Shown here piece after piece: positions 2,821 to 42,526 of a stretch of DNA of 64,000 nucleotides. This DNA is from Flavobacterium noncentrifugens (GTDB lineage Bacteria; Bacteroidota; Bacteroidia; Flavobacteriales; Flavobacteriaceae): NCBI RefSeq assembly GCF_900100375.1, contig NZ_FNEZ01000002.1, positions 434,001-498,000 of the forward strand, read 5' to 3'. Both the position numbers and the translations under genes were made by a program. Numbering within the stretch: the stretch's first letter is position 1; every line of letters starts with the position of its first letter. A model generated the notes under the pieces. That model was not told where the DNA came from. It did no database searches and saw only the letters and a program-made list of their open reading frames with translations.

Positions 2821-2852
2821 TTGCTGAGTGACTGAGTAACTAAGTCGCTGAG
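2821..2852. repeat. Period-8 tandem repeat (nnnCTGAG)
   Basis: Four 8-base units TTGCTGAG, TGACTGAG, TAACTAAG and TCGCTGAG stand in tandem. The repeat fills the gap between the ABC ATPase and the adenosyltransferase, and includes the stop codon and last three codons of the ATPase gene. Confidence 0.6.
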
Positions 2853-3535: not shown

Positions 3536-3762
3536 ATTTTGAATTTGTGATAAAAGTACACAATTTTGACATAAATATTAGTCACATTTTGCTGCGATGA
3601 TGTTACACAATTTCAATCTGCATTTATATGATTATTATAATTTTAATTAAAAAAAGACAATAATATTAAATAATTCATAAAATATTAAGTTAATTAAAGA
3701 TTTAAATCAAATAATTTTATATTTTTACGGCGTATTATAATCTAAACAATAAATCAAGAATC

Positions 3763-5360: not shown

Positions 5361-5386
5361 CAATGTAATTTCTTATTCGATCAGTT

Positions 5387-5448
5387 TGTCATTTCGACGA
5401 AGGAGAAATCTTTAAAATGATGCAGATTTCTCCTTCGTCGAAATGACA
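5387..5448. repeat. Perfect 25-bp inverted repeat (hairpin element)
   Basis: The arms at 5387-5411 and 5424-5448 are exact reverse complements, starting TGTCATTTCGACGAAGG, with a 12-base AT-rich loop. The element sits between uup and the methyltransferase gene, with no T-tract directly after either arm, so it is not a typical terminator. It looks like a dispersed palindrome (REP-like). Confidence 0.85.
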
Positions 5449-5456
5449 TATAGCAA

Positions 5457-7319
5457 TTATCCCTCAAACTTCGCGCTCAACTCAAACCAGCGTTCTTCCT
5501 TGCTTTCGATCTTTTTAATAACTGTTTGCAATTCCAATGCTTTACTTTCAATATCAGAATCGGAAACTTTTCCATCCGAAAACAATTGTTCGATTTTCGC
5601 TTTATCAAATTCTAAATCTTTAATTTCCTTTTCGATTTTCTTGAATTCTTTTTCCTCGTTAAACGTTAAATTTCCGGTCGGATTGTTTTGTTTCCAGGCT
5701 TTCTTTTCGGTTTTGTTGTCTTCTTTCTGCTGCACATCGGCCGAATCTTCATACGCACGAAAATCGGAATAATTGCCCGGAAAATCCTCAATCTCGCCCT
5801 GTCCGCGGAACACGAACAAGTGATCGACGATTTTATCCATGAAATATCTGTCGTGAGAAACTACTAATAAACAGCCGGGATAATCTAAAAGGAAACTTTC
5901 AAGAACGTTCAAAGTCACAATATCGAGATCATTTGTCGGCTCATCAAGAATCAAAAAGTTCGGATTCTGGATCAAAACCGTACACAAATACAAACGTTTG
6001 AGTTCGCCACCGCTTAATTTCTCTACAAAATCATACTGTTTTTTATTGTCGAACAAAAATCTTTCAAGCAATTGCGAAGCCGAAATGATTTTTCCTTTCG
6101 TCAGCGGAATAAATTCGCCATATTCCTTAACAATATCAATCACCTTTTGCTGCGGTTTTGGATTAATGCCGCTTTGTGTATAATAACCGATCTTGATCGT
6201 ATCGCCAACAACAACTTTGCCTGCATCTGGCGGTGTAACTCCGGTTAAAATATTGAGAAAAGTTGATTTTCCGGTTCCGTTTTTCCCGATGATTCCGATG
6301 CGTTCGCCACGCTGAAAATCAAAACTAAAATTCTCTAAAATGACTTTGTCGTTGAATTTTTTATACAGTTTGTGCAGCTCAATGATTTTGCTGCCCATGC
6401 GTTCCATATTAATTTCAAGCTCGACCTGATTTTCCCTGCGTCGGCTTTCGGCTTTTTCCTTAATCACGTAAAAATCATCCTGGCGTGATTTCGATTTGGT
6501 CGTACGCGCTTTTGGCTGTCGGCGCATCCACGCGAGTTCTTTCACAAAAAGATTCTGCGCTTTGTCGACCGAAGCGTTTTCAGAAGCGATCCGCATTTCC
6601 TTTTTCTCTAAATAATAAGAGTAATTTCCTTTATATTGGTACAACTTCCCATTGTCGAGTTCGATGATTTCATTGCAAACGCGCTCCAAAAAGAAACGGT
6701 CGTGCGTCACCATAAATAAGGTAATATTTTCTTTCGCAAAATAACTTTCGAGCCATTCGATCATCTCTAAATCCAGGTGATTCGTTGGTTCATCCAAAAT
6801 CAAAAGATCCGGGCGGCTGATTAAAATAATCGCCAATGACAAACGTTTTTTCTGTCCGCCAGACATATTTTTAACCTTCATTTTCAGGTCTTCAAGTTTC
6901 AGCTTGAACAAAATCTGCTTAAACTGGTTTTCAAAATCCCAGGCTTCATGTTGGTCCATCCGGTCGAAAGCCAATTGGTAAGCTTCTTCATCTTCCGGAT
7001 TTTCAAGCGCTTTTTCATACGCTTCAATCACTTTTAGCACTTCATTATCAGATGCGAAAATGCTCTCTTCAACCGTTAATTCGTCCTGTAAATTCGGGAC
7101 TTGAGATAGAAATGCCATTTTGATTTCCTTGCGGATCACGACCTTTCCGGTGTCTGGCGTATCGAAACCATTGATAATATTCATAATGGTCGTTTTGCCC
7201 GAACCGTTTTTCGCGATAAAAGCAATTTTCTGGTCTTTATTGATGCCAAACGAAATGTTGTCAAACAACGTGCGGTCGCCAAACGATTTCGAGATATTTT
7301 CTACTGATAGGTAATTCAC
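5457..7319 (-). CDS. uup: ABC-F family ATPase, Uup type
   Basis: This is a soluble ABC-F protein of 620 residues with two ATP-binding domains on one chain and no membrane segments. ABC-F proteins act on the ribosome or on nucleic acids. Domain 1 has GKNGSGKTT, MSGGQKKRLSLA and LLILDEPTNHLDLE. Domain 2 has GKNGTGKST, LSGGELKRLYLC and LILDEPTNDLD. The linker between them is basic (RRQPKARTTKSKSRQ). The C-terminal 90 residues form a Glu/Lys-rich coiled coil, which is what separates Uup from the other ABC-F types. The start is GTG, giving MNYLSVENISKSFGDRTLF, and a TACTTTTG promoter box lies about 17 bases upstream, so no earlier start is likely. Confidence 0.93.
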   Translation of the reverse strand: MNYLSVENISKSFGDRTLFDNISFGINKDQKIAFIAKNGSGKTTIMNIINGFDTPDTGKVVIRKEIKMAFLSQVPNLQDELTVEESIFASDNEVLKVIEAYEKALENPEDEEAYQLAFDRMDQHEAWDFENQFKQILFKLKLEDLKMKVKNMSGGQKKRLSLAIILISRPDLLILDEPTNHLDLEMIEWLESYFAKENITLFMVTHDRFFLERVCNEIIELDNGKLYQYKGNYSYYLEKKEMRIASENASVDKAQNLFVKELAWMRRQPKARTTKSKSRQDDFYVIKEKAESRRRENQVELEINMERMGSKIIELHKLYKKFNDKVILENFSFDFQRGERIGIIGKNGTGKSTFLNILTGVTPPDAGKVVVGDTIKIGYYTQSGINPKPQQKVIDIVKEYGEFIPLTKGKIISASQLLERFLFDNKKQYDFVEKLSGGELKRLYLCTVLIQNPNFLILDEPTNDLDIVTLNVLESFLLDYPGCLLVVSHDRYFMDKIVDHLFVFRGQGEIEDFPGNYSDFRAYEDSADVQQKEDNKTEKKAWKQNNPTGNLTFNEEKEFKKIEKEIKDLEFDKAKIEQLFSDGKVSDSDIESKALELQTVIKKIESKEERWFELSAKFEG

Positions 7320-14534: not shown

Positions 14535-14607
14535 GAAGTTGAAGGAGCAAAGTGACAGAGCAGGAAAGTTTCCTTCTATTGCGGAAATCACCGGTTTGTA
14601 GTTTGTC

Positions 14608-14742
14608 CTAGCCCGGATGGAAGCGGCATCCTTTTGCATTTGAAATTAAAAGGAGAACAGCTGGTGGCTGTTAGGTATTTTGGTTAACAAAAGCATCATT
14701 TTAAATGCAAAAGATAAAGCGGACGGCCGGAATAGCTCCTGA
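14608..14742 (+). repeat. Flavo-1-like hairpin element, copy B
   Basis: The conserved 5' end CTAGCCCGGATGGAAGCGG and 3' end GCCGGAATAGCTCC flank arms that pair over ATCCTTTTGCATTT and AAATGCAAAAGAT. About 50 bases of low similarity to the other copies lie in the loop. It fills most of the 247-base gap between the exonuclease and FAH genes, on the same strand as both. Confidence 0.65.
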
Positions 14743-16064: not shown

Positions 16065-17327
16065 ATGAAAGCAACCATAGTCACCATTGGTGACGAAATT
16101 TTAATTGGGCAGATTGTCGATACGAATTCGGGTTTCATCGCCAAATCCTTGGATAAAATCGGTATCGAGATTTCAGAGATGATCTCCATTTCCGACAACA
16201 AGCAACACATTTTAGACACGTTTGCCAACCTGCAAAACCAGGTCGATCTGGTTGTGATCACCGGCGGCCTCGGCCCAACCAAAGACGACATCACCAAGAA
16301 AACATTCTGCGAATACTTTAATGACGAACTTGTTACCAACGAAGAAGTATTGGCACACGTCACCAAACTCATTGAAGGTTATTTCAAGCGTCCAATCACG
16401 CAAATCAATAAAGACCAGGCTTTGGTTCCGTCAACTGCGATTGTGCTTAAAAACGACAACGGCACCGCGCCGGGAATGTGGATGAAAAAAGAAAGCACCG
16501 TTTTTATTTCATTGCCCGGTGTTCCGTTTGAAATGAAAGGCATTATAGAAAATGAGATCATTCCAAAGATCGTCAAAGAATATGAGCGTCCATACATCAT
16601 CCACAAAACCATTTTAACGTACGGAATGGGCGAAAGCATGCTTGCTGAAAAAATCGAAGACTGGGAAAACAACCTTCCAGAATTTATAAAGCTGGCCTAT
16701 TTGCCAAGTCCGGGACGCGTTCGCTTGCGATTGTCTGCCCGCGGCACCGACAAAGAAATCCTCGACAAAGCGCTCAACCAAAACATCGAAAGCCTAACCA
16801 AAATCATCGGCGATATCATCACCGGATTTGACGACAGCGAAACGCTTGAAATGGTTTTGGGAAAATTATTGACACAAAATAAAAAAACGATGGCGACTGC
16901 TGAAAGCTGCACCGGCGGAAAATTGGCACAACTCATTACGTCCATTCCGGGTTCGTCACAATATTTCAAAGGCAGCATCGTTAGTTATTCGAAAGAAATC
17001 AAAATAAAAATCCTGGGCGTTTCCGAAGAAACGATTAATAAATATTCAGTCGTCAGTGAAGAAGTAGCAATCGAAATGGCGACGCAAATTCGAAAAATAA
17101 TGAACACTGATTACGGCATCGGAATCACCGGAAATGCAGGTCCGACAACCGATGATACCAATGAAGAAGTTGGCGTGGTTTTCATAGCATTGGCAACACC
17201 AAATGGCACATTATCGGACAAATTTAACTTCGGCCAGCCACGCGAAAAAGTCATTGACCGCGCCATAAATAAAAGCATGGAAATGCTGCAAAAAGAAATT
17301 TTAAAAAACGCTGCGACGAATGTCTAA
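16065..17327 (+). CDS. cinA: CinA family protein (nucleotide-pyrophosphatase/NMN amidase type)
   Basis: This 420-residue protein has the two CinA domains. The N-terminal MoaB/MogA-like domain shows [20 protein letters not shown] and [10 protein letters not shown], and continues through [10 protein letters not shown]. The C-terminal CinA/PncC domain shows [20 protein letters not shown], then [11 protein letters not shown] and [18 protein letters not shown]. CinA proteins recycle pyridine nucleotides: the C-terminal domain deamidates NMN to nicotinate mononucleotide, and the N-terminal one can cleave ADP-ribose. The gene is upstream of rpmB on the same strand but separated by more than 200 bases. 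Confidence 0.94.
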
Positions 17328-17546
17328 TGACGAATGTTTAACGAGCAGCATTTAGTCATTCGTCGTTCATCATTGGTCAAAAAAAACTCAAATCTTAACC
17401 AAAGCGACAAATACCAGCCTGCTCTTTTTCTGCCTTTAGAAGTTAAATTATAAAAAATAAAAAATTGTACTTTAATTATTTTGCAGAAACGTTTATTTTT
17501 CTTTTCTTTGCACCCTGATTTTGAATAACGATAAAAGATAAGCATA

Positions 17547-17783
17547 ATGTCAAGAGTTTGTGACCTTACAGGTAAAAGAGCGATGGTAGGAAATAATGTT
17601 TCCCACGCGATGAATAAAACTAAGAGAAAATTCTCTGTGAACTTAGTGAAAAAGCGTTTCTATCTTCCTGAAGAAGACAGATGGATTGTGTTAAGAGTCG
17701 CTGCTTCAACAATTAAAACAATCAATAAAAACGGAATCGCTGCAGTTTTGAAAAAAGCGCAGAAAGAAGGTTTTATTAAATAA
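17547..17783 (+). CDS. rpmB: 50S ribosomal protein L28
   Basis: The protein of 78 residues begins [21 protein letters not shown], the L28 signature, and has the basic block [16 protein letters not shown]. Length and sequence are normal for Bacteroidota L28. It opens the rpmB-rpmG-DUF4295 cluster, with 34 bases before rpmG. The long AT-rich leader contains CTTTGC-type boxes that may be its promoter. Confidence 0.97.
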
Positions 17784-20670: not shown

Positions 20671-20746
20671 GGTTTGGTTTTTAAGTCGGGCTTATGACCT
20701 TAAAAATACACAATAGTTTAAACAATTTTTCATTTTAATTGAAGTG

Positions 20747-20860
20747 CCTAGCCCGGATGGCAGCGGTATCCTTTTTATTGCCTGGATGCTGCTCCGGTTC
20801 ACGGAAAGGTATGTGCAATAAAAAGATACAAGCGTACAGCCGGAAATTGCTCCCGAAAAA
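20747..20860 (+). repeat. Flavo-1-like hairpin element, copy E
   Basis: It starts CCTAGCCCGGATGGCAGCGG and ends AGCCGGAAATTGCTCC. The arms GTATCCTTTTTATTGC and GCAATAAAAAGATAC pair with one bulge. Compared with copy B the paired arms differ in sequence on both sides but still match each other. It lies between divergent genes, on the strand of the downstream lipoprotein gene, 33 bases before its ATG. Confidence 0.7.
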
Positions 20861-23984: not shown

Positions 23985-25574
23985 TTAAAGCACAATAATG
24001 TCAAAATCGTTTTCCAGTGGATGCAAAGAAAATAACAATTTCTGAATCAAGGCTTTTCCGCTTTCCAAATAAAATTCTGCAAAATTCGCTTGCCGTTCTT
24101 GAAGGCTTTTATTTGGAAACAATTCATTTTGCAAATCGGTGATGCGCTGGAGTTGCTCGCTGTATTTTCTTTTTTGTGCTTTTAGCAAACGTTTCTCAAG
24201 ATTTTCCAAACCTTTTATTTGCTTGGCTTGCTGTGCTTCGACAGCGCCTGTGAAAGATTTGTCGGTTTTCAGGGCAACCTGCATCAAATCTTCAAATTGT
24301 TGCTTGAGCAATATTTTTTGCTTTTCGAAATTCACCGGGAATTCTGATATTTCCCTGGTTTTGCGGTTTACCAATTCCTGTTGTTTCATAAATAAATCTG
24401 ACCACGATAAAAACAAACGATCGGCTTTTTTAGCTTGTTTTTCAGTAGCGAGCATTACAGAATTTCGCAGTAATAATATAGGAAATGTAACATTTACCGC
24501 ATTAAAATAGGCTTTAAGCTCAAGCCAATAGGCCAATTCGCCGCCGCCGCCGATGTAACAAAGGTTTGGTAGGATGGCTTCCTGGTACAAGGGGCGCATG
24601 ATGACGTTCGGGCTGAATTTCTCCGGATGGTTTTCTAGTGTTTCGAGGATTTCAGGTTCCGTAAATTTTATTTTGGTATGGTTGACATAATACAAACCGT
24701 CCTGAAAAATAATGCGTTCGCGCAAACCATCTTCGATGTAAAAGAGATTGATCTCCCGCGGGTTCACCTGAATGTTGTAGTCTTCTAGCTTTTTAGTCGT
24801 TTCTGAAACCATTTTAGAAGAAACCTGCTCCAGCAATTCCCGTTTCACATACGGAGCAAGTAATGTTTTGAGCGCTTTATCATCAGGTTCAATGATCACC
24901 AGGCCAAAATCTTTAAACAGCGCATTTGCCAGCCAACGTGTAGCATCAGCAAGATTTTCATGTTTCAGGTATGCTTTGCTGAAAAGCGTTTTAATTGTTT
25001 CAGCATTGCTTCCCGGCCCAAGGTCAAGTGCAAATAGTTTAAAAACTTCGTCTAAACCTGCTGTTGACAAACGCCCAACCGGCCCCGAACTTTCTTTGTT
25101 CCAACGAAACTTTTTGCCTTTAAAAGTGAAATAATTGATTTCTTCAAAATCATGGTCTTCGGTTGCCATCCAATATATAGGTACGAAATGGTGCTGCGGG
25201 TATTCGGCTTTCAATTGCTTCACCAGGTTGATCGTACTGATGATCTTATATAAAAAATACAACGGCCCGGTAAACAAATTCAACTGATGCCCGGTCGTGA
25301 TCGTAAAGGTATTTTCGTGCTGCAGCAGTTCGATGTTTTTAAGCGTCAGGTCAGAAGCAGGGACTTTTTTATATTGCTTTTGCAGCGTTTGCGACAGCAC
25401 TTTCCTGTTTTCAGGATTGAAATTTAGCTGCTTTTCTAAAATCTGTGCCCCGAAATTCTCAAGTGTCGGAAATCGGTTGTACAATGGCTGTAGCTGCGTT
25501 TTCTGATTCAGGTAATCATTCATGATGGGCGTGAAATATCCGGAATCCTGGTAGCTTATACAGTCGGTTGGCAT
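23985..25574 (-). CDS. bshC: Bacillithiol biosynthesis cysteine-adding enzyme BshC
   Basis: BshC adds cysteine to glucosaminyl-malate in the last step of bacillithiol synthesis. The 529-residue length is right. Recognised segments are DCISYQDSGYFTPIMNDYL near the start, FTITTGHQLNLFTGPLYFLYKIISTI, FVPIYWMATEDHDFEEIN, the block LCYIGGGGELAYWLELKAYF, and a C-terminal coiled coil with AQKRKYSEQLQRITDLQNELF. It is a single gene, divergent from the radical SAM gene. Other bsh genes are not in the window. Its presence implies that the organism uses bacillithiol as a low-molecular-weight thiol. Confidence 0.95.
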   Translation of the reverse strand: MPTDCISYQDSGYFTPIMNDYLNQKTQLQPLYNRFPTLENFGAQILEKQLNFNPENRKVLSQTLQKQYKKVPASDLTLKNIELLQHENTFTITTGHQLNLFTGPLYFLYKIISTINLVKQLKAEYPQHHFVPIYWMATEDHDFEEINYFTFKGKKFRWNKESSGPVGRLSTAGLDEVFKLFALDLGPGSNAETIKTLFSKAYLKHENLADATRWLANALFKDFGLVIIEPDDKALKTLLAPYVKRELLEQVSSKMVSETTKKLEDYNIQVNPREINLFYIEDGLRERIIFQDGLYYVNHTKIKFTEPEILETLENHPEKFSPNVIMRPLYQEAILPNLCYIGGGGELAYWLELKAYFNAVNVTFPILLLRNSVMLATEKQAKKADRLFLSWSDLFMKQQELVNRKTREISEFPVNFEKQKILLKQQFEDLMQVALKTDKSFTGAVEAQQAKQIKGLENLEKRLLKAQKRKYSEQLQRITDLQNELFPNKSLQERQANFAEFYLESGKALIQKLLFSLHPLENDFDIIVL

Positions 25575-25766: not shown

Positions 25767-25774
25767 TAAATTTG
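25767..25774 (+). promoter_or_regulatory. Predicted -7 promoter element of the radical SAM gene
   Basis: TAAATTTG fits TAnnTTTG, 11 bases before the ATG, so the leader would be very short. Confidence 0.5.
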
Positions 25775-25785
25775 CCTTTTTAGTT

Positions 25786-27984
25786 ATGGAAACCAAAATA
25801 TTCCTTTTTACGCCGCCCTTCACGCAACTCAACACGCCCTATCCGGCGACGGCTTATATTAAAGGCTTCCTGAATACTAAAAATATTCCTTCCACGCAGG
25901 CTGACCTCGGAATTGAAGTCATCCTCGAATTGTTTTCCAAAAAAGGGCTTGAGCGGATTTTTAAAGATGCTGAAAATAAAACCTTGCAGCTTTCGGCAAA
26001 TGCTGGGCGGATTTTAGCGCTGCAGGACGAATACCTCAAAACGATCGATGCCGTGATTTTGTTTCTACAGGGAAAAAATCCAACCTTATCATTACAAATC
26101 TGCCAGGAAGATTTCCTGCCTGAAGCATCGCGGTTTGCACAACTTGAAGAACTCGACTGGGCTTTTGGGACTATGGGAACTCAGGACAAAGCCAAGCATT
26201 TATCTACATTGTATCTTGAGGATATTTCCGATTTTATCGTCGAAGCCGTAGATGAGAATTTTGGCTTTAGCCGATATGCCGAACGTTTGGGCCGAAGCGC
26301 GAATTCGTTCGACGAACTCTATGCTGCGCTGCAACTCGGCCATACTTATATCGATGAGATCCTGATTGAAATCCTCCGAAAAAAAATCGAAAGCATACAG
26401 CCCGATTTTGTTTTGATCTCGGTGCCGTTTCCCGGAAATTTATATGCGGCTTTCCGCTCAGCGCAATGGATCAAAAAGCATTATCCGAATATTAAGATTT
26501 CTATGGGCGGCGGTTTCCCGAATACCGAATTGCGTTCGCTTTCGGATGCGCGCGTCTTCGAATTCCTGGATTTTATTACGCTTGACGACGGCGAAATGCC
26601 GGTTGAAAATCTGATTGAACATTTAGAAGGTAAACGTAATTTATGCGATTTAAAGCGGACTTTTGCCTTAGTCGATGGAAAAGTGCAGTATATCAACAAT
26701 TCGACCTGCCGCGATTACAAGCAAAGCGAAACCGGAACGCCTGATTATTCCGATTTGCTGTTGGACAAATACATCTCGGTGATCGAAATCGTCAACCCGA
26801 TGCACCGCATGTGGAGCGACGGCCGATGGAACAAACTCACCATGGCGCACGGCTGTTATTGGGGTAAATGCACATTTTGCGACATTTCGCTCGATTATAT
26901 TAAGGTCTACGAGCCTGTCGCGGCGAACCTGCTTTGCGACCGCGTCGAAGAACTGATCGCGCAAACCGGGCAGAATGGTTTTCATTTTGTCGATGAAGCC
27001 GCACCACCAGCATTGATGCGTGCGTTGGCATTGGAAATCATCCGACGGAAAATTGCAGTCACCTGGTGGACGAACATCCGTTTTGAAAAAAGCTTCACTA
27101 AAGATTTATGCCTTTTATTAAAAGCTTCAGGCTGCATTGCCGTTTCGGGCGGATTGGAAGTGGCTTCCGACCGTTTGCTGGAACTCATCGATAAAGGCGT
27201 AACGGTCGAACAAGTCGCAAAAGTAACCCGGAATTTTACTGAAGCCGGAATTATGGTACACGCGTATTTGATGTACGGCTATCCCACGCAAACCATCCAG
27301 GAAACTGTTGACAGCCTTGAAATGGTGCGCCAATTGTTTGAAGCGGGAATTTTGCAATCGGGTTTCTGGCACCAGTTTGCAATGACGGCGCACAGTCCGG
27401 TGGGTTTGTATCCGGAGCAATTTGGCGTGGTGAAGGAATCGGATATTGTGGGTTCGTTTGCCAATAACGACATCAATTACACAGATCAAACCGGAATCGA
27501 TCACGATAAATTCAGTTTCGGATTAAAGAAATCGCTGTTCAATTATATGCACGGCATTTGTTTCGATTATCCGTTGCAGGATTGGTTCGAATTTAAGATT
27601 CCGCGTACCAAAATCCCTGATGATTTTATTTTTAATGCACTAAATGAAGACACCGATCTTTCGATTAAAAATTCGGCAAAAGTCATTTGGCTCGGCGGAA
27701 AGCCAAGTATGGAACGTTTCACAAAAACCAAAAAAGGCCGAAGCTGGAACATGATTTCGCTGAAATTTCACGACAAAAAGGAAAGTTTTACGGTCACTGC
27801 AAATGCTGGAGAAGGCGGTTGGTTTCAGGAAATGCTGCCAAAAATCAGTGTTTCGAATTCAAAAACAACGACGTTGGGCGAATTTAAAACCAGCTTTGAA
27901 AATGCCGGGCTTGAAGATTTTGAACTCTTCTGGCATTCAAAAACGATTCAGGTTTTACGCGATTTCGGCTTATTGGTACTATAA
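25786..27984 (+). CDS. B12-binding-domain radical SAM protein with CX4CX2C cluster motif
   Basis: The 732-residue protein starts with a cobalamin-binding-like Rossmann region (KIFLFTPPFTQLNTPYPATA, later PDFVLISVPFPGNLYAAFRSA and ISMGGGFPNTELR). The radical SAM core follows, with cluster cysteines Cys357, Cys362 and Cys365 in HGCYWGKCTFCDISLDY. The spacing is CX4CX2C, one residue longer than the standard CX3CX2C. The core continues with FVDEAAPPALMRAL, WWTNIRFEKSFT, SGGLEVASDRLLELIDKG and MVHAYLMYGYPTQTIQETV. The last 170 residues form a family-specific C-terminal part. The substrate is unknown. It is a lone gene, without a nearby precursor peptide. Confidence 0.88.
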   Translation: METKIFLFTPPFTQLNTPYPATAYIKGFLNTKNIPSTQADLGIEVILELFSKKGLERIFKDAENKTLQLSANAGRILALQDEYLKTIDAVILFLQGKNPTLSLQICQEDFLPEASRFAQLEELDWAFGTMGTQDKAKHLSTLYLEDISDFIVEAVDENFGFSRYAERLGRSANSFDELYAALQLGHTYIDEILIEILRKKIESIQPDFVLISVPFPGNLYAAFRSAQWIKKHYPNIKISMGGGFPNTELRSLSDARVFEFLDFITLDDGEMPVENLIEHLEGKRNLCDLKRTFALVDGKVQYINNSTCRDYKQSETGTPDYSDLLLDKYISVIEIVNPMHRMWSDGRWNKLTMAHGCYWGKCTFCDISLDYIKVYEPVAANLLCDRVEELIAQTGQNGFHFVDEAAPPALMRALALEIIRRKIAVTWWTNIRFEKSFTKDLCLLLKASGCIAVSGGLEVASDRLLELIDKGVTVEQVAKVTRNFTEAGIMVHAYLMYGYPTQTIQETVDSLEMVRQLFEAGILQSGFWHQFAMTAHSPVGLYPEQFGVVKESDIVGSFANNDINYTDQTGIDHDKFSFGLKKSLFNYMHGICFDYPLQDWFEFKIPRTKIPDDFIFNALNEDTDLSIKNSAKVIWLGGKPSMERFTKTKKGRSWNMISLKFHDKKESFTVTANAGEGGWFQEMLPKISVSNSKTTTLGEFKTSFENAGLEDFELFWHSKTIQVLRDFGLLVL

Positions 27985-28041: not shown

Positions 28042-30309
28042 TTATTCTTTGATGATTTTTTCGATCTTGCTTCCTTTTTCTGTACTGATCTTCAAAAAGT
28101 AAATGCCTTTGGATTGTTGTGACAGATCGATTGAAGTTTCCTTTTTGTTTTCTGCCGATGACTGAAGAATTCGGCCCTGAACATCAAATAGCGCAATCGA
28201 TTTAATCGTGTTTTTCGATTGGATCTTCACCACATCTTTCGCCGGGTTTGGATGTATACTGATACTGCTGTCGCGCTCAAATTGCTGGTTCTTCAACAGC
28301 CTGAAAGTCGTTTTTGCTTCATTGGTTTCAATTGGCGCATTGTAATCGAAATAGATATTTGCGGTGTTTTCTATGGTGCCGTCTATTGGAATATCGGATT
28401 TGGTTTTGATTTTAAACAGCACGTTTCCGTGTCCGCCAATCGGGCTTATGGAGGAAGGTGGCAAATTGATGTTTTCAAAAATGAACTCAACGACATTCCC
28501 TTTGACTTTCGTGCTTAAAGGATGTGAGCTGTTTAAGACCTGAAGTGACTCCATGCTGAATTTGTTGCTGTCGATCACATCCCTGACCACGATGTTTGTT
28601 GCATTAGCAGTTCCCAGATTTTCGAAATTAATATTGTAATGCACATATTTGCCAATTTGCGCTGAATCTAATATTTCTCCTTCAAGGCAAATTTTACTAT
28701 TCGGGTCAATTGCATTAACGGCTGTTTGGTTGAATGTAAAATTGTTGTCAAGCGGCGTTTCATCAGTTGCAATTGGCGATACCGAGGCCAAGAAACTCAA
28801 AACATCACCGCTATGTACCGGCGGGGTTTCAACAGACGAATTAATATTGAGCGTTACAATGATTTGCCTGCTTTCAAAAGGCAGTAAATTATTATAGAGA
28901 AAGGCGCGCAATCCAATTTGCCCGGCGGAAGGATCAGGAACAGCATTAACAAAATCAGAAAAACTATCGTCATAATTAAAAACAACGCTTCCTGAAAGTA
29001 TTTGATTTCCTTTATTTTTATAGACGATTTTATAAACCGCATCAAATCCTGGGCGCGCTGTAGTGAGTGGCACAACGACCACTTCTACGTCAGGATGCAT
29101 TCCTTCGGGTGTGATGCAAAAGTCCTGTGTGATCTCATGGCTGGCATTATCGAAAGGAAATGTCGCCACTGCTGATAAAGGGCTGATATTAAAAAGTTCA
29201 GGTCTTTCAATAATGGGCGCTACTGTAAAGTTGCCCGAAGTGGTGTAAATCGAATAATTTCCATTGTGATCAGTAACCGCTGCATTTTCGTCTGTTGTGT
29301 CATTTGCCCTGATTTTAATATACGGCATGGCAAGATCATTTTCATCACAGCCATTGTTGTTTGCGTCAAAGCGTACATTTCCTGTAATGGTATTGTAATT
29401 TCCGCCAGGTACAAATGAACAATACGGGGAATATACAGGTACATTGGTAACATGCTCACTAAAAAAAGTACCTTCTTCAAAACTATCCACACAAATATAT
29501 TTTAAGGCCGGGCAATTGTCGATTTGCCATCCGCGGTTGCAGCTCGAATCAATCGCAGGATCGCAGGAATCACCAACGCCATTCTTCAGATTGATGTATT
29601 GCAGGTTTGGGTTGTTGCTGAGGTTTACGCCGGTACGGTAAAACGAGCAATGCGAAACATCCAATGTTGTTATTGCAGTATTCGTACAGACAAAATTAAC
29701 CAGACTGCTATGCCTTAGCGTAAAGGAAGTAAGCGGATTGTTAGAAATCGTAAGAATGTCTCCGGATGAAATGGAATATTCAGGAAATTCCAAAGCCGTC
29801 AGTTGGTTATTAGAAAAATTACTTTCATACAACTGTGTAATCCCGGATAAGTTTACAGCAGTTAAGGCATTATTTTGGCAATATAAAGTTTCAATCCCCA
29901 GATTGCTCAGGTCTAATGTAACGAGTTGATTGTCATTGCAAAAAAGCGACATAGCGTGTGGAGCATGGTTTAACAGCAACGATGTTAATGCGTTGTTGTC
30001 GCAAAACACAATGCCAAGCTGTGGCAACATGCTTATATCCAATGTTGCCAGGTTGTTACCATTGCATGCAAGATTCCTTAAATTGATAAAATATTGTATT
30101 TCTGGCATAGCCGAAATATTGGAGGCGCTCACTTCCAGATCTAAAACGGTTTCGGCTTCGGTAAACTGAATTTCGCCGTCACCATTTGTATCCACCAGTG
30201 TCGGATGGTTTAAAAGCGCGGTTTTAAAATTTGGATCTGAAAACTCGATGATGTCCTGGGCATGTGCCATGGTGCCAATCAATAATAAGCAAGAGAATAT
30301 TTTTTTCAT
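28042..30309 (-). CDS. Leucine-rich-repeat surface protein with DUF7619-like and T9SS type A domains (paralogue 1)
   Basis: The 755-residue protein begins with a Sec signal (MKKIFSCLLLIGTMAHAQ), then an EF-hand-like calcium loop DTNGDGEIQFTE at residues 40-51. Leucine-rich repeats of about 21 residues follow, such as LRNLACNGNNLATLDISML. After about residue 300 comes a SdrD-like/prealbumin-like segment (GNYNTITGNVRFDANNNGCD), then a DUF7619/DUF11-like beta domain with IGKYVHYNINFENLGTANAT and IGGHGNVLFKIKTKSD, and last a T9SS type A domain (ISIHPNPAKDVVKIQSKN, SKGIYFLKISTEKGSKIEKI). The ATG at 30309 is preferred over one at 30339 because it starts the signal peptide. It is the last gene of the kinase-regulator-LRR block. 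Confidence 0.9.
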   Translation of the reverse strand: MKKIFSCLLLIGTMAHAQDIIEFSDPNFKTALLNHPTLVDTNGDGEIQFTEAETVLDLEVSASNISAMPEIQYFINLRNLACNGNNLATLDISMLPQLGIVFCDNNALTSLLLNHAPHAMSLFCNDNQLVTLDLSNLGIETLYCQNNALTAVNLSGITQLYESNFSNNQLTALEFPEYSISSGDILTISNNPLTSFTLRHSSLVNFVCTNTAITTLDVSHCSFYRTGVNLSNNPNLQYINLKNGVGDSCDPAIDSSCNRGWQIDNCPALKYICVDSFEEGTFFSEHVTNVPVYSPYCSFVPGGNYNTITGNVRFDANNNGCDENDLAMPYIKIRANDTTDENAAVTDHNGNYSIYTTSGNFTVAPIIERPELFNISPLSAVATFPFDNASHEITQDFCITPEGMHPDVEVVVVPLTTARPGFDAVYKIVYKNKGNQILSGSVVFNYDDSFSDFVNAVPDPSAGQIGLRAFLYNNLLPFESRQIIVTLNINSSVETPPVHSGDVLSFLASVSPIATDETPLDNNFTFNQTAVNAIDPNSKICLEGEILDSAQIGKYVHYNINFENLGTANATNIVVRDVIDSNKFSMESLQVLNSSHPLSTKVKGNVVEFIFENINLPPSSISPIGGHGNVLFKIKTKSDIPIDGTIENTANIYFDYNAPIETNEAKTTFRLLKNQQFERDSSISIHPNPAKDVVKIQSKNTIKSIALFDVQGRILQSSAENKKETSIDLSQQSKGIYFLKISTEKGSKIEKIIKE

Positions 30310-30339
30310 GATAAAACTTTTATGATGGTCAACGATCAT

Positions 30340-32817
30340 TTATTCTTTGATGATTTTTTCAATTTTGCTTCCTTTTTCACTGGTGATTTTTAAAAAGTAA
30401 ATGCCGTTTGATTGTTGTGACAAATCGATCGAAGTTTCCTTTTTGTTTTCTACCGATGTTTGCAAAATGCGTCCCTGAACATCAAATAAATCAATCGTTT
30501 TGATCATATTTTTCGATTGGATCTTTACAAAATCCTTTGCCGGGTTTGGATGAATCCTGATGCTGTAGTCACGCTCAAACGCCTGATTGTTTAACAACCT
30601 GAAAGTCGTCTTGGCTTCATTGGTCACAATCGGAGCATTGTAGTCAAAATAGATGTTTGCGGTGTTTTCTACCGTATCGCCAGCATAAAGATTTGAGTTG
30701 GTTTTAATTTTGAAAAGCACATTTCCATGGCCGCCAATCGGATGCATGTGAGACGGTGGCAAGTTGATGCCTTCGTAAATAAATTCAATTGTATTGCCTT
30801 CGGTTTTGACATATACGGGATGCGAACTATTTAAAACCTGCAATGATTTGATGTCAAATTTATTAGGATCGATGGTATCGCTGATCACGATATTTTCAGC
30901 ATTGGCATTGCCGGTATTTTCAAAATTGATATTGTAATGCAGGTATTTTCCAATTTTTTCAGGAGTGACATTGTCACCTTCAAGGCAAATTTTATTATTA
31001 GGGTCGAATGCGCCGGTAACCTTTTGATTAAAAATAAATACATTGTCGGCCAGCGTGTCATCAGCATCAATTGGATCAATTGTTGCGGTAAAATGCAGGA
31101 TATCTCCAATATTTACAGGGTTTATTTCTACAGGCGAATGAATGCGCATCCGGATTGTAATTTCCCTGTTTTCAAAAGGGATCAGGTTGGTATAATTAAA
31201 AATTAAGCGGTTTGGAATGATGCTAAATACGGGATGTGATGTTGAAATGAAATCGATGACGCTACTCTCAAAATCAAGTGTAACTGTTCCGTTTGATGTT
31301 TTATTTCCTTTGTTTTTGAATGAAATTTTATAAAGTATTTCAAAGCCCGGTGCAGCTGCGCTCAATTCGGCCATCACAATCTCTATATCGGGATGGTTCC
31401 CATTTGCGGTAATGCAGAAATCCTGTGTTTGTAGCAAACCTTCGGCTGCAGGAAAATGAATCAGTGCGTTTTGTGGCGTTGTGATAAAGTATGCAGGATT
31501 TTCGAAATCGGTTTGTATGGTATAATCTCCAGCTTGGGTGTAAAATGTATAATTCCCTGAATTTCTTGTAAAAACCTCGCGGCTGATTCCATTGCTTTCA
31601 GTCAGTTTTACCTTCATAAGCGGCAACACCGGATCTGTATTGCAACCGTTGTTGTCGTTATCGAACCGCAGTGTTCCGGTAATGGTATTGTATCCGCCAC
31701 CAGGCGTAAAAGTGCAATAATCGTTGACTGCCGGTGCGCCTCCGATGGTTTGTCTAACATAAGAAATTTCTTCCGCATCGGCACAAATGTAACCCAGTAG
31801 GGGCAAATTGGTTAGAACCAATGTTTCACGGCTTCCGTTTTTAATACTGAGATTGGCAATCGGATTGTTAACGATAGATAAAGCTTCGAGCCTGTGCATT
31901 GCCGAAAGATCTAGCGACGTCAAAAAACCATTATAAAACGTCATCAGGGTAATATTCGTAGTTCCTGTAAGATTAACAGTCGTAAATTTGGAGTTGTTGC
32001 TGCTAAATGAATTCAGATCAGGGCAGTTTACAATGTTGACATTTTCGAGATTCGTACAGCCTGTAAAACCCACCATTGTCATACCAAGGCAATTGGAAAT
32101 GTTGACTGTTGTAAGATTAGTGTTGTTTCCAAAACCCATAGTGAAGGGATAAGAATCAATTGCCGCCGAACTGAAATCAGAGATACTAAAAGATACCATG
32201 TTGTTGTCAGGTACTGGCCCGTCGATATATGTTAATTCCGTCATGCCAAGGGCTTCAAAATTTTGTATTGATGTTAAAGTCAAAGAAAGCACCTGAAGAT
32301 TTGTCAAACCGGAAATATTAAAATTGGTCATTACACGCATATTCCGTGAACAATTCACATTGACCAGGCTTGTCATCGGGCGCAAATCTAAAGCAGGCAA
32401 ATTTGCGCCAACAACGGTTAAGTTTTGGAGTGCAGTGCCTGAAATATTTAATGTTTCCAATGGTACGTCATTCGCAAACAATTTTTTTAAAAATACCATA
32501 TTGCTGACATTTAAGTTGGTCATAGGATCAGACTCTAACGACAAATACGCCAGGTTCGAAAATGATAGAATTCCTGTCAAATCAGAAATATTTCGATTGA
32601 CCGAGTTCAGTTCAGAAACTTCAAGCGCTTCCGCGAATTGGATTTCACCATCGTTATTGCTGTCGATTTTAAAATAAGCGTTGCTACGGTTTTTAGCAAT
32701 TGAATTGGTTACATCAGCTTGCAGTAGCAATGCCTTAAAATTTGCATCTGGAAAATTAATTACCTGCGCATTTGTGGTCATTGCAAAAAACATCAATAAA
32801 AAGGCTATCTTTTTCAT
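30340..32817 (-). CDS. Leucine-rich-repeat surface protein with DUF7619-like and T9SS type A domains (paralogue 2)
   Basis: The 825-residue protein has the same plan as its two neighbours: signal peptide (MKKIAFLLMFFAMTTNAQ), calcium loop DSNNDGEIQFAE at residues 52-63, irregular leucine-rich repeats to about residue 345 (LQNLTVVGANLPALDLRPM), a segment with GGYNTITGTLRFDNDNNGC, the DUF7619-like domain (IGKYLHYNINFENTGNANAE) and a T9SS domain. Its repeats are less regular than in paralogue 3. The last 85 residues differ from paralogue 3 at only about three positions plus the tip, and the DNA is about 97% identical over roughly 310 bases, while the LRR parts are diverged. The gene starts 9 bases after paralogue 3 ends. 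Confidence 0.9.
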   Translation of the reverse strand: MKKIAFLLMFFAMTTNAQVINFPDANFKALLLQADVTNSIAKNRSNAYFKIDSNNDGEIQFAEALEVSELNSVNRNISDLTGILSFSNLAYLSLESDPMTNLNVSNMVFLKKLFANDVPLETLNISGTALQNLTVVGANLPALDLRPMTSLVNVNCSRNMRVMTNFNISGLTNLQVLSLTLTSIQNFEALGMTELTYIDGPVPDNNMVSFSISDFSSAAIDSYPFTMGFGNNTNLTTVNISNCLGMTMVGFTGCTNLENVNIVNCPDLNSFSSNNSKFTTVNLTGTTNITLMTFYNGFLTSLDLSAMHRLEALSIVNNPIANLSIKNGSRETLVLTNLPLLGYICADAEEISYVRQTIGGAPAVNDYCTFTPGGGYNTITGTLRFDNDNNGCNTDPVLPLMKVKLTESNGISREVFTRNSGNYTFYTQAGDYTIQTDFENPAYFITTPQNALIHFPAAEGLLQTQDFCITANGNHPDIEIVMAELSAAAPGFEILYKISFKNKGNKTSNGTVTLDFESSVIDFISTSHPVFSIIPNRLIFNYTNLIPFENREITIRMRIHSPVEINPVNIGDILHFTATIDPIDADDTLADNVFIFNQKVTGAFDPNNKICLEGDNVTPEKIGKYLHYNINFENTGNANAENIVISDTIDPNKFDIKSLQVLNSSHPVYVKTEGNTIEFIYEGINLPPSHMHPIGGHGNVLFKIKTNSNLYAGDTVENTANIYFDYNAPIVTNEAKTTFRLLNNQAFERDYSIRIHPNPAKDFVKIQSKNMIKTIDLFDVQGRILQTSVENKKETSIDLSQQSNGIYFLKITSEKGSKIEKIIKE

Positions 32818-32826
32818 AATAATATG

Positions 32827-35757
32827 TTAGTTATTCTTAATGATTTTTTCAATTTTGCCTCCTTTTTCACTGGTGATTTTCAAAAAGTAAATGCCGTTTG
32901 ATTGTTGTGACAAATCGATCGAAGTTTCCTTTTTGTTTTCTACCGATGTTTGCAAAATGCGTCCCTGAACATCAAATAAATCAATCGTTTTGATCGTATT
33001 TTTCGACTGGATCTTTACAAAATCCTTTGCCGGGTTTGGATGAATCCTAATGCTGTAGTCACGCTCAAACACCTGATTGTTTAACAACCTGAAAGTCGTC
33101 TTGGCTTCATTGGTCACAATCGGTGCATTGTAATCAAAATAGATGTTTGCGGTGTTTTCAACGCTGCTGTCTATAGGGAGATTCGAATTTGTTTTGATCT
33201 TAAATAGTACATTTCCGTGCCCGCCAATGGGGTTTCTGATTGATGGCGGGAGGTTGATGTTTTCGAAAATGAATTCAACAATATTTTCTTTAACACTTAT
33301 TTTTACCGGGTGCGAACTATTTAACACTTGAAGGGAATTGATGTCGAATTTTGCAGCATTGATCGTGTCTTTTACAACGATATTCACTGCATCGGCACTT
33401 CCAGTATTCTCAAAATTAATGTTGTAATGCAGGTATTTTCCAATGTTTTCCGCAGAAAGATTTGCACCTTCGAGACAGGTTTTATCATTCGGATCGTGTG
33501 AATTTACGACAGTTTGCGCAAGATTGAACGTATTGTCATATCCAATATCATCACCCTGGGCGGCCGTTATATTTACCGAAGAATTTAGAATGTCGCCGTC
33601 ATTTACCGGCAAATCCTCAACCGGCGAATTTAAGTTCAATCTGAAAAAATAGCTTTTTGAATCAAATAGCGCAAAATTATTATACAGCCAACTTATGGTG
33701 TTTCCGTTTTGGAAATCAGGATTTGGTGTCGCCGAAACAAAATCGGTATGCCCATCATCAAAAGTCATTGCAATCGTTCCTGACAAAATCTGGTTGCCCT
33801 TGTTCTTACAGATAATTTCATAATCGGCATCAAATCCCGGGCGCGCAATCCCAACTGGTAAAATCAAAATTTCAACATCGGGATGGATGCCATTGGCCGT
33901 AAGGCAAAAGTTTTGAGTGGAAATAGAGCTGTTGGCTGCGTCAAAATTCACAACTGCCTGCGCCGGAGATACATTGAACCACAGCGGGTTTTCAATTTGC
34001 GGTTTGACAGTAAAACTTCCGACAGGAGTAAAAAAAGAATATTTTCCGGTTTCAGAAGTAAAAGTAGCTCCGGATTCAAATCCGTCGTTGATTGTGATCT
34101 TCATCAGCGGATGCTTTAAATCGGCAGCATTACAGCCATTGTTGTTTGCATCAAAGGTTAGTTCGCCTGAAATCGTATTGTAATTTCCGCCAGGCACAAA
34201 TGAACAATAGGAGTTTACCTGCACATTTTGATTGTTTGTAGGCAACGAAATTATTTTGTTGCGAATAGATACAGCGTTAAAGTCATCTGCACAAACAAAC
34301 GCAAGGTTTGGGGTATCAATATTTCCAGAATTGGAAAACTGTAGTAAACCATTTTTGTAATTCAGATAGGTTAAGTTTGGCGAATTGGTCAAATATAAAT
34401 CATTAACTGCAGTCTTTGATAGATCCAATGAAGTCAATAGTGAACTGCCGATTGTTAATTCTGACAATTGCGAAAGATTGTTTAGGTTAAGTTGAGGCAG
34501 TTGCGATGCAGAGATCGTTAGCATATTCAAATTGCTGGGTACATCGGCCTTGATTTCACTTAATTCCGGGCTGCCACAATTTACATATCCAGTTTCTATT
34601 GAGGAAATGTCGAGTGAAACGATCGGGTTATTTTGGCATGTAAGGCTTGAAAGACCGTGCAACGGGAGCAATTCCAGTGCAGAAATATTGTTATTCTCGC
34701 AATACAATCCTCCAATCGATGTTGCGTTTCCAAATGTTAAGGCGTTAAGATGATTGTTTCTACAAAAAAAGGCTATTAAGTTTGTCATTGAGGCGATATC
34801 CAATTCGGTAAGTTGGTTATCTTCACAAGAAAACCACTCTAAATTGACCAATGGAGCAACATTTAGTTCGGTAAGCATGTTTTCACCGCAAGTGAAATCA
34901 GTCAGATTTATTAACGTGTGTACATCGAGCGCTTGCAATTGATTTGAATCACAGCCAAAATTTATAAGATTTGTCAAAGGCAATACATTTAGATCAGCAA
35001 TCGAATTTACGGCGCATTGCAAAAAAGTCAGCCCTGTCAATGATGCGACATTTAAAGATGTGAGTTGGTTGTTGTTGCAGTTCAATTTTGTCAGCGTAGT
35101 TGTGGTTGGAACATTTAGAGAAGTCAGATTATTGTTAGAGCAGTCAATTTCTATGAGATTGTTATTTCCACCAAAAATTAAAGAATTCAATTCTGAATCA
35201 TTGCATTTTAACAAAGTCAATGCCGTTAAGTTGCTCACATTTAAACTGCTTAAAAAGGTGTCATTGCAAATCAGTTGTTTAAGGTTGGGTGTCTGCGTTA
35301 AATCAAGGCTTGATAATGAAGAATTGGATGAAACATCGAGGTATTCAAGGCTTGCCAATCCTGTCAAATCCAAAATGGAAAGCGAATTATTGGCGAGGAT
35401 TAAAGATTTCAGGTCTGCCAATCCGGAAACATTAACCGATTGCGCACTTCTAAATTCAATTGTAACCAAGTGCGTCAAGGCAGTCATGTCGATGGAATCA
35501 AAATAATAGCCGCCACATTTAAGAGAAGTCAGATTTGTAAAAGCACTAAGTCCGGTAAGGTCAAATATGAATTCAGAGGAGATTACATCCATAGAAGTCA
35601 CTGCTAAAGCTTCATTTGTGTCAATTTGGTTGTCACCATTCGTATCAAAACCTGCTGCCAGCAAATAGCTTTTAAAACCTGCATCCGGAATATTTACAAT
35701 GGTTTGAGCTTGTGCTGCCGTCGCAAAAAACAACAGCAGAAATGTAATTTTTTTCAT
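32827..35757 (-). CDS. Leucine-rich-repeat surface protein with DUF7619-like and T9SS type A domains (paralogue 3)
   Basis: At 976 residues this is the largest and most regular of the three. The signal peptide (MKKITFLLLFFATAAQAQ) is followed by the calcium loop DTNGDNQIDTNE at 38-49 and about 18-20 leucine-rich repeats with a 21-residue period, such as LTKLNCNNNQLTSLNVASLTG. The Cys-rich LxCxxN form is typical of Bacteroidota and internalin-like LRRs. Then come GGNYNTISGELTFDANNNGC, the DUF7619-like domain and the T9SS sorting domain ending in KIEKIIKNN. It starts 17 bases after the LytTR regulator stops, so it is probably co-transcribed with it. Likely a surface adhesin or binding protein; the ligand is unknown. 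Confidence 0.92.
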   Translation of the reverse strand: MKKITFLLLFFATAAQAQTIVNIPDAGFKSYLLAAGFDTNGDNQIDTNEALAVTSMDVISSEFIFDLTGLSAFTNLTSLKCGGYYFDSIDMTALTHLVTIEFRSAQSVNVSGLADLKSLILANNSLSILDLTGLASLEYLDVSSNSSLSSLDLTQTPNLKQLICNDTFLSSLNVSNLTALTLLKCNDSELNSLIFGGNNNLIEIDCSNNNLTSLNVPTTTTLTKLNCNNNQLTSLNVASLTGLTFLQCAVNSIADLNVLPLTNLINFGCDSNQLQALDVHTLINLTDFTCGENMLTELNVAPLVNLEWFSCEDNQLTELDIASMTNLIAFFCRNNHLNALTFGNATSIGGLYCENNNISALELLPLHGLSSLTCQNNPIVSLDISSIETGYVNCGSPELSEIKADVPSNLNMLTISASQLPQLNLNNLSQLSELTIGSSLLTSLDLSKTAVNDLYLTNSPNLTYLNYKNGLLQFSNSGNIDTPNLAFVCADDFNAVSIRNKIISLPTNNQNVQVNSYCSFVPGGNYNTISGELTFDANNNGCNAADLKHPLMKITINDGFESGATFTSETGKYSFFTPVGSFTVKPQIENPLWFNVSPAQAVVNFDAANSSISTQNFCLTANGIHPDVEILILPVGIARPGFDADYEIICKNKGNQILSGTIAMTFDDGHTDFVSATPNPDFQNGNTISWLYNNFALFDSKSYFFRLNLNSPVEDLPVNDGDILNSSVNITAAQGDDIGYDNTFNLAQTVVNSHDPNDKTCLEGANLSAENIGKYLHYNINFENTGSADAVNIVVKDTINAAKFDINSLQVLNSSHPVKISVKENIVEFIFENINLPPSIRNPIGGHGNVLFKIKTNSNLPIDSSVENTANIYFDYNAPIVTNEAKTTFRLLNNQVFERDYSIRIHPNPAKDFVKIQSKNTIKTIDLFDVQGRILQTSVENKKETSIDLSQQSNGIYFLKITSEKGGKIEKIIKNN

Positions 35758-41203: not shown

Positions 41204-42526
41204 TTATCCATTAATTACCACTTCGCCATACAAATCAAATTCTGTTGCATCGGTAATTTTAATCATTGCAAATTCACCGGTTTTTAAATAGTATTTTGAA
41301 GCGTCGATAAGCACTTCATTATCAACATCAGGACTGTCAAATTCGGTTCTTCCAACAAAATGCTGGCCTTCTTTTCGGTCGATGATGCATCTGAATGTCT
41401 GCCCAATTTTTTCCTGGTTCAATTCCCATGAAATCTGAGACTGAATTTCCATGATCTCATTCGCGCGTTGTTGCTTTACATCGGCAGGAACATCATCTTC
41501 AAGCAAATAAGCATGCGTATTTTCTTCGTGCGAATAGGCAAAACAGCCCAATCTTTCGAAACGCATTTCCTCGACCCAATTTTTCAAGATCTGGAAATCT
41601 TCTTCCGTTTCGCCAGGGTAACCAACGATTAAAGTTGTTCTGATCGTCATTCCCGGAACTGCTTCGCGGAATTCTTTTAATAATTTCGTCGTTTTCGCCT
41701 GAGTTGTTCCGCGGCGCATCGATTTCAAAACTGAATCCGAAATGTGCTGCAACGGAATGTCAAGGTAATTACAAATCTTTGGCTCGCGCTTCATCAAATC
41801 CAAAACATCCATTGGGAAACCAGTAGGGAAGGCGTAATGCAAACGAATCCATTCGATGCCTTCAATTGCAGCTAGTGCTTCGAGCAATTCGGCTAAATTT
41901 CTTTTTTTGTATAAATCAAGTCCGTAATAAGTCAAATCCTGGGCAATTAATATCAATTCTTTGACGCCATCCCGGGCCAAACCTTCAGCTTCTTTAACCA
42001 GTTTTTCAATCGATTGTGACACGTGTTTGCCACGCATCAGCGGAATTGCGCAAAAACTGCAAGGACGGTCGCAGCCTTCGGCAATTTTCAAATACGCGTA
42101 ATTCTTCGGGGTTGTCGTCAAACGCTCGCCAAGCAATTCGTGCTTATAATCCGCTCCAAGCGCTTTTAACAACAAAGGCAATTCGGTCGTCCCGAAAAAC
42201 TGGTCGACATTCGGGATTTCTTTTTCAAGATCCGGTTTGTAACGTTCAGACAAACAGCCCGTAACAAACACTTTATCCACAAGTCCGCGTTCTTTTTTAT
42301 CGGCGTATTCCAAAATCATATTCACCGATTCGGCTTTCGCATTGTCAATAAAACCACAGGTATTGATCACAATGATGTTGCCTTCTTCAGCCGCCGGTGC
42401 TTCGTGCTGCACGTCTTTTCCGCTGGCACGCAGCTGGCCCATCAAAACCTCGCTGTCGTAAACGTTTTTCGAGCAGCCTAAAGTAATGACGTTGATTTTG
42501 TTCTTTTTTAAAGTCTTGGTTCTCAT
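41204..42526 (-). CDS. rimO: Ribosomal protein S12 methylthiotransferase RimO
   Basis: RimO adds a methylthio group to an Asp of ribosomal protein S12. The 440-residue protein has the N-terminal UPF0004 domain (VITLGCSKNVYDSEVLMGQL, IVINTCGFIDNAKAES, VFVTGCLSERY, with three cysteines for the second cluster), the radical SAM core with Cys152, Cys156 and Cys159 in EGCDRPCSFCAIPLMRG (standard CX3CX2C), and a C-terminal TRAM domain (QTFRCIIDRKEGQHFVGRTE). PNVDQFFGT and DIPLQHISDSVLKSMRRG separate it from MiaB. It is monocistronic here. Confidence 0.96.
   Translation of the reverse strand: MRTKTLKKNKINVITLGCSKNVYDSEVLMGQLRASGKDVQHEAPAAEEGNIIVINTCGFIDNAKAESVNMILEYADKKERGLVDKVFVTGCLSERYKPDLEKEIPNVDQFFGTTELPLLLKALGADYKHELLGERLTTTPKNYAYLKIAEGCDRPCSFCAIPLMRGKHVSQSIEKLVKEAEGLARDGVKELILIAQDLTYYGLDLYKKRNLAELLEALAAIEGIEWIRLHYAFPTGFPMDVLDLMKREPKICNYLDIPLQHISDSVLKSMRRGTTQAKTTKLLKEFREAVPGMTIRTTLIVGYPGETEEDFQILKNWVEEMRFERLGCFAYSHEENTHAYLLEDDVPADVKQQRANEIMEIQSQISWELNQEKIGQTFRCIIDRKEGQHFVGRTEFDSPDVDNEVLIDASKYYLKTGEFAMIKITDATEFDLYGEVVING

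Follow-up and report, generated by a model that had tools for sequence, protein, structure and literature searches.

Cobalamin-dependent radical S-adenosylmethionine (SAM) enzymes of class 1 are characterized, according to PMC13331322, by a five-stranded Rossmann B12 domain with a trailing beta-hairpin, placed N-terminal to the radical SAM core. OxsB, TsrM and TokK are our reference members of this class, with CysS added by structure match. A 64,000-nucleotide stretch of the Flavobacterium noncentrifugens genome (contig NZ_FNEZ01000002.1, positions 434,001 to 498,000), analysed here and called "the window", with position 1 as its first letter, encodes a radical SAM protein that resembles these enzymes in its modelled N-terminal domain and in the absence of the DxHxxG motif. 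It differs from them in its CX4CX2C cysteine motif, in a large helical insertion (not compared in detail with theirs) and in a C-terminal winged-helix-like domain; its cobalamin binding is predicted. We found that the protein represents a real, distinct subfamily of a known kind of enzyme, without a name in the libraries searched, and the literature searched yielded no paper naming the family. We give somewhat better than even chances to the explanation that it is a cobalamin-dependent radical SAM methyltransferase whose substrate is some conserved component of the cell, produced by genes at another place in the genome. The parts of the gene referred to below are as follows (aa, amino acids; pLDDT, predicted local distance difference test):

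25786..27984, plus strand: coding sequence of the radical SAM protein, 732 aa, ATG start, stop codon included; homologues align over the full length
25786..26778, plus strand: cobalamin-binding-type Rossmann domain, residues 1-331, predicted from the AlphaFold2 model and VIA-align
25906..26400, plus strand: helical insertion between strands 2 and 3, residues 41-205, from the secondary structure of the model; in all 24 rows of alignment A2
26422..26436, plus strand: VPFPG loop after strand 3, residues 213-217, from the model and the alignment; putative role by mapping onto known structures
26845..27324, plus strand: radical SAM core, residues 354-513, PF04055 match
26854..26880, plus strand: CX4CX2C motif CYWGKCTFC, residues 357-365, from the sequence; in 161/161 distinct members
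27619..27981, plus strand: C-terminal part, predicted to be winged-helix-like, residues 612-732, model pLDDT 88.3; missing in short family members

The radical SAM core and the family

The open reading frame (ORF) is intact, and its strand and coordinates are exactly those first reported. The core matches the Pfam Radical_SAM profile PF04055 (E 1.2e-11, 45.5 bits) above the gathering score of 29.5, and the same profile matches all 24 members of alignment A2 at E <= 0.01. According to the preliminary description, Cys357, Cys362 and Cys365 are spaced CX4CX2C, while RimO of the same window has the standard spacing; both statements are borne out by the sequence, the former within AHGCYWGKCTFCD and the latter by CDRPCSFC (CX3CX2C) in the gene at 41204-42526 on the minus strand. 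Our family set consists of 165 loci and, counting that of the window, 161 distinct proteins; the other members are ~43-82% identical to the window protein. CX4CX2C is invariant among the 161 distinct proteins, in the form [HQ]GCYW..C.FCD, and since it has been kept over such a range of identity, the spacing is not due to chance.

The preliminary description went further and took the wide spacing, together with the cobalamin-like region and the C-terminal part, as a possible mark of a subfamily with a new reaction. We rejected the spacing alone as such a mark, because the same spacing is found in the aminoglycoside C-methyltransferase GenD1 (given as Cx4Cx2C in PMC4340712), in the queuine lyase chain 6p78 (CIWGKCSFC) and in six rows of our tree (L173, L176, L202, L205, L169 and L170). 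As judged from these sequences, CX4CX2C is a valid mark of the family, but B12-type radical SAM proteins show it repeatedly, and taken alone it is no sign of novelty. Other spacings in the tree are CX7CX2C in L174 (annotated as a RiPP C-methyltransferase, where RiPP stands for ribosomally synthesized and post-translationally modified peptide) and in the unannotated L204 and L207, and CX3CX2C in both BchE rows (L175 and L203) and in the own-genome rows L002-L004. GenD1, which we compared by its described motif alone, differs from the present family in acting in an antibiotic pathway. The queuine lyase chain is 251 aa long, which would be too short for the B12 domain of this family, and matches with an E-value of 0.16 only; it is absent from the structural matches shown for the whole model, which in itself excludes nothing. 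L169 and L170 (genomes G155 and G102, family f31) form a second small group of CX4CX2C radical SAM proteins, with the motif SRNCYWQKCSFC and 24-25% identity to the window protein.

The family is well delimited by similarity and by phylogeny. Identity to the window protein goes down to 43% in its weakest members and is 26-30% in the next matches by E-value (5.9e-29 and weaker), with some short ones lower in the ranking up to 35%. In a tree of 39 rows (23 family members and 16 others; row L164 of A2 and the GenD1, GenK, PhpK and QueL sequences were left out) the family forms a single branch with support 100/100, while the placement of the outgroups is unsure, because the tool flags long branches. 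The proposal of a distinct subfamily is upheld by this branch together with the NCBIfam scores given below. No clear clustering with a characterized family occurred among the families tested, with GenD1, GenK, PhpK and QueL outside the tree.

By the curated NCBIfam cut-offs the window protein belongs, on its sequence, to no family of that library. Its best match is TIGR04479, the PhpK P-methyltransferase (E 8.3e-23, residues 196-516, 80.5 bits versus a cut-off of 600), followed by TIGR03975, the RiPP C-methyltransferase (E 3.4e-21, residues 163-548, 75.4 bits versus 281.85); further matches, likewise short of the cut-offs, are to BchE, HpnJ and a lipid-biosynthesis model. TIGR04479 and TIGR03975 each match 24/24 A2 members at E <= 1e-5, and so do six more models including BchE, with HpnJ matching 23/24. 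One could read the two leading matches as membership in a known family, i.e. a RiPP C-methyltransferase or a PhpK-type P-methyltransferase of a natural-product pathway. The low E-values speak for this, as does the annotated RiPP enzyme L174, which shares with the window protein the pattern C[YW]WG...CTFC and the PDYS stretch preceding it. We nevertheless regard such membership as very unlikely, given the bit scores, the position of all three CX7CX2C rows outside the family branch, and the surroundings of the family genes, where none of the 15 largest clusters of short ORFs (6-12 loci each, within 1.5 kb, at the 165 loci) looked precursor-like by eye.

Among 60 relatives searched, the family is present in 35 of the 36 genomes of the genus (G031 has none; G034, which is 60% complete, has a fragment), while 3 of 23 genomes from other families of the order gave a strong match. 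In a sample of 296 genomes from the phylum, 52 besides the window's own hold a relative at E <= 1e-150 (17 of the genus, 6 of the order, 16 of the class and 13 of the phylum), and 0/12 genomes from other genera of the same family do so. A scan of genome contigs, from which we took the best 80 of at least 592 loci, returned loci all labelled as Bacteroidota; among these 80 the closest labelled relatives are mostly Flavobacterium, the best with 81% identity. Members with 49-57% identity were found on plasmids of Aureibacter, Parabacteroides, Vitreoscilla and Ideonella, two of these carriers being betaproteobacterial. In the tree the two betaproteobacterial rows join L153, from the class of the window's own genome, with support 90/93, a grouping that suggests horizontal transfer.

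The N-terminal B12-type domain

The cobalamin-like N-terminal region of the preliminary description proved to be a fair call, albeit a weak one by sequence. The Pfam B12-binding profile matches the window protein in residues 197-275 only (E 0.0021), with 18.3 bits and hence below the gathering score of 32.1; 18 of the 24 A2 members match it at E <= 0.01 (best E 7.4e-07) and six do not. The model suggests a larger domain, of approximately residues 1-331, of which Pfam finds just the second half, probably because of the helical insertion at 41-205. The whole protein, modelled by AlphaFold2 with 34 family sequences, came out well in its N-terminal part and poorly in the barrel (mean pLDDT 66.5, with the stretches 333-375 and 449-502 under 50). 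The barrel stayed poor because scans of viral contigs for more diverse sequences added only one partial family member; four further loci had no motif-bearing reading frame of at least 60 aa.

In the model of the Rossmann domain, strands 5-9, 36-40, 208-212, 237-241 and 263-265 are followed by a beta-hairpin (292-303), so that the prediction agrees with the class 1 fold of five strands and a trailing hairpin ahead of the core, as PMC13331322 describes it. Structure comparison of this part (about residues 1-331) with VIA-align identified OxsB as the best match (5ul4: Z 18.4, 185 residues, 2.6 A), followed by TsrM (6wte: 16.3), CysS (9n1d: 15.2) and TokK (7kdx: 14.9). The top ten rows, with Z from 18.4 to 12.5, are all cobalamin-dependent radical SAM enzymes; methionine synthase comes next, from Z 12.1 downward, and the tenth row (12.5) is tied with it. 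OxsB and TsrM were also ranked first by Foldseek with the whole model, though at no E-value of 0.001 or lower.

In OxsB, TsrM and TokK the loop after strand 3 sits under the cobalt and contributes Asn186, Arg69 and Trp76, respectively (PMC13331322). By analogy, residues 213-217 of the window protein would be the counterpart of this cobalt-facing loop. P214, F215 and G217 are invariant in 24/24 A2 rows, and [IV]PF[PA]G is found in 159 of the 161 distinct members, while the loop of the window protein contains no His, Arg or Trp. Other Rossmann residues (G241-G243, N246-R250, D267, G269 and E270) are likewise invariant in all 24 members, as are residues of the core. DxHxxG, the motif of MetH-type B12 proteins, does not occur within the first 320 residues in any of the 161 distinct members. 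Based on the missing DxHxxG, the modelled Rossmann fold and the conserved loop, we predict that cobalamin is bound base-off, without a His ligand, rather than His-on. One family member (L164, 6995-9367) has an insertion of ~60 residues between the B12 and the radical SAM parts.

A domain of this kind could also be a relict, in which the B12 fold was kept and corrinoid binding was lost, leaving an ordinary 5'-deoxyadenosyl radical enzyme. The sub-threshold Pfam score of the window protein, the six A2 members unmatched at E <= 0.01, the lack of His, Arg and Trp in the loop and the lack of a B12 riboswitch in the window and four other loci would all fit such a loss. On the other hand, 18 members do match the B12 model, the best of them at E 7.4e-07, the invariance of the Rossmann residues fits a retained ligand, and the 13 family-bearing genomes checked all appear to handle B12; we therefore consider a relict improbable. 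The last point rests on PduO-type corrinoid adenosyltransferase and B12-domain matches over cut-off, which were found in 13/13 of these genomes, including the window's own and the four family-bearing genomes without a MetH match (G096, G112, G157 and G220). This co-occurrence agrees with B12 use and is no proof of it. MetH itself matched in 287 of the 296 sampled genomes, and we dropped its co-occurrence as a sign of B12 dependence, as it does not discriminate.

The C-terminal domain and the proposed reaction

The "long specific C-terminal part" of the preliminary description is, according to the model, a separate winged-helix-like domain, which 8 of the 165 loci lack (L143, L144, L145, L155, L157, L158, L161 and L163). 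Folded alone with 81 sequences, residues 612-732 gave a pLDDT of 88.3, with four strands followed by four helices. The best structural matches are residues 1-88 of ThcOx (5lq4: Z 6.5, 86 residues, 3.1 A) and a chain of McbBCD (6gri_2: Z 5.7), and further rows comprise GdmN (Z 5.2-5.6, with a root mean square deviation over 6 A) and a halogenase (4.7). Foldseek gave no match to this domain at E <= 0.001, and sequence comparison with Pfam and the PDB gave no convincing one.

ThcOx is said to carry RiPP recognition elements, McbC to have no N-terminal domain and the remnant element of another oxidase to be recognized with DALI Z 5.3-6.5 (PMC8795117), while the RiPP recognition element is defined as a winged helix of three strands followed by three helices, for which small domains yield many false positives (PMC12710340). 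The modelled C-terminal domain shares the winged helix and the strands-then-helices order of the latter definition, and has ThcOx and the McbBCD chain as its top rows. It differs from RiPP recognition elements in that the Z-scores are just 6.5 and 5.7, that no sequence match is convincing and that the domain is optional in the family. The weak likeness, seen in a model, is a lead and suggests that the substrate may be a peptide or a protein. Five of the eight short members are in the tree, where they fall in three places, so the domain has probably been lost more than once and is probably dispensable for the core reaction.

We propose the following course for the reaction of a cobalamin-dependent radical SAM methyltransferase. 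Cys357, Cys362 and Cys365 would bind the [4Fe-4S] cluster at which SAM is cleaved, and the N-terminal Rossmann domain would accommodate a corrinoid, base-off and without a His ligand. The resulting 5'-deoxyadenosyl radical would abstract a hydrogen from the substrate, and methylcobalamin would then give its methyl group to an unreactive carbon (or phosphorus). The substrate would be a conserved cell component encoded elsewhere in the genome: the gene lies mostly outside clusters, is near-universal in the genus and is strongly conserved, so a component made elsewhere is the probable target. We favour methyl transfer, since both of the closest sequence models describe methyltransferase families.

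Several observations weigh against this explanation. The argument from the nearest models is soft, since six other models, BchE included, match all 24 members as well, and the best structural match, OxsB, is no methyltransferase according to PMC13331322. The Pfam B12-binding match stays below its gathering score, Foldseek found nothing at E <= 0.001 with the whole model, and the barrel is modelled at such low confidence that the active site is not visible. Neither the window nor four sampled loci contain a cobalamin riboswitch at gathering score. As to the substrate, the Z-score of 6.5 between the C-terminal domain and ThcOx is below 8, a range that the tool rates as unreliable, the domain is missing from eight loci, and the statement that the gene stands apart is not true everywhere, because in 26 of the 165 loci a biotin-carboxylase operon with its carrier protein gene lies downstream and in the same orientation (the carrier within 1.5 kb in 23).

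The prominence of OxsB makes a different chemistry conceivable, in which the enzyme binds cobalamin and does not methylate, as in the ring contraction by OxsB or the ring formation by BchE, and acts on a conserved small molecule, lipid or pigment. OxsB tops the structure matches of the B12 domain with Z 18.4 versus 14.9-16.3 for the methyltransferases, the BchE (24/24 members), HpnJ (23/24) and lipid-biosynthesis models also match below cut-off, and non-methylating members of the class are on record (PMC13331322). Because the best structural match does not methylate, we give this alternative about one chance in four; the lowest E-values, however, belong to two methyltransferase models, and neither domain nor model similarity settles the chemistry. 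A more specific version of the proposal, which we regard as unlikely, is that the enzyme, B12-dependent and equipped with a domain of peptide-recognition type, would be near-core in Flavobacterium and other Bacteroidota and would carry out an undescribed modification (C-methylation or another radical reaction) on a conserved peptide or protein encoded elsewhere.

Gene surroundings

Both genes that flank the radical SAM gene in the window are on the opposite strand, and a short element precedes it:

23985-25574, minus strand: upstream flank, bshC-like
25767..25774, plus strand: -7-like promoter element TAAATTTG, a weak likeness in sequence
28042-30339, minus strand: downstream flank, secreted-type protein rich in repeats

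The name bshC-like is putative for the upstream flank, and TAAATTTG was compared with the -7 element of Bacteroidota (TAnnTTTG); no partner TTTG element was seen by eye. The earlier remark that no peptide or sugar gene lies nearby holds for the two flanking genes.

To describe the neighbours of the family, we clustered the genes of 142 loci and inspected 26 distant or plasmid loci by eye, with L153 outside the survey; 60 of the 165 loci extend just ~1.5 kb past the gene, so that their surroundings are incompletely covered. As in the window, 36/165 loci have a bshC-like gene upstream in the opposite orientation. The carboxylase loci (e.g. L063, L072, L079 and L088) encode a biotin carrier protein, a biotin carboxylase and often a carboxyltransferase, with the carrier 31-227 bp downstream in several of them; no such operon stands beside the radical SAM gene in the genome of the window. 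Those that we list (14 others are not listed) comprise 12 Flavobacterium records, one with the carboxylase upstream, and L166 of the same genus. Outside the genus a carboxylase was found in Chitinophaga (L141: one subunit, 6.8 kb away) and in the distant L154 (one abutting subunit on the opposite strand). We consider the link as synteny within the genus, and possibly as an operon there.

Elsewhere the adjacent partners vary: DUF455 (L177), bVLRF1 (L151), a nitrilase-type protein and an aminotransferase (L154), a SpoIIE phosphatase (L144), a sensor kinase (L145) and a second radical SAM protein (L159); in L162 a DNA methylase is encoded two genes away. No neighbour common to different lineages was seen among the 165 loci, 60 of them with the short flanks mentioned above. 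In most of the short-ORF clusters the lead member is on the other strand, and four clusters, in 6-9 loci, are on the same strand. L177 (1-3784) comes from a viral contig and contains phage-like ORFs by eye, then the DUF455 gene and a partial family member of the betaproteobacterial type; the DUF455 gene ends at about the start of the radical SAM gene, and this is probably host DNA beside a prophage.

Several other elements of the window and its genome were noted. A PduO-type corrinoid adenosyltransferase (TIGR00636 match, G000:C10:436258-436803) is encoded at 2240-2812, 23 kb from the radical SAM gene. Two Flavo-1 RNAs (RF01705) score over the gathering score at 14606-14737 and 20746-20850. 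On the minus strand, 28042-35757 holds a tandem of three similar large secreted-type ORFs (765, 825 and 976 aa), in which leucine-rich-like repeats occur and the C-terminal ends are alike. A second stretch of the same genome (L172, G000:C9:374000-393900) encodes three B12-binding-type radical SAM proteins with CX3CX2C within ~15 kb (ORFs 2832-4286, 5061-6440 and 16235-17752), whose neighbours by eye resemble methyltransferase and membrane proteins.

A B12-type radical SAM gene that is present in 35 of 36 sampled genomes of its genus, mostly outside evident biosynthetic clusters, points to a B12-linked reaction that has so far escaped recognition. The genus in which it is near-core includes the model species Flavobacterium johnsoniae, a record of which carries a copy of the family (L084).

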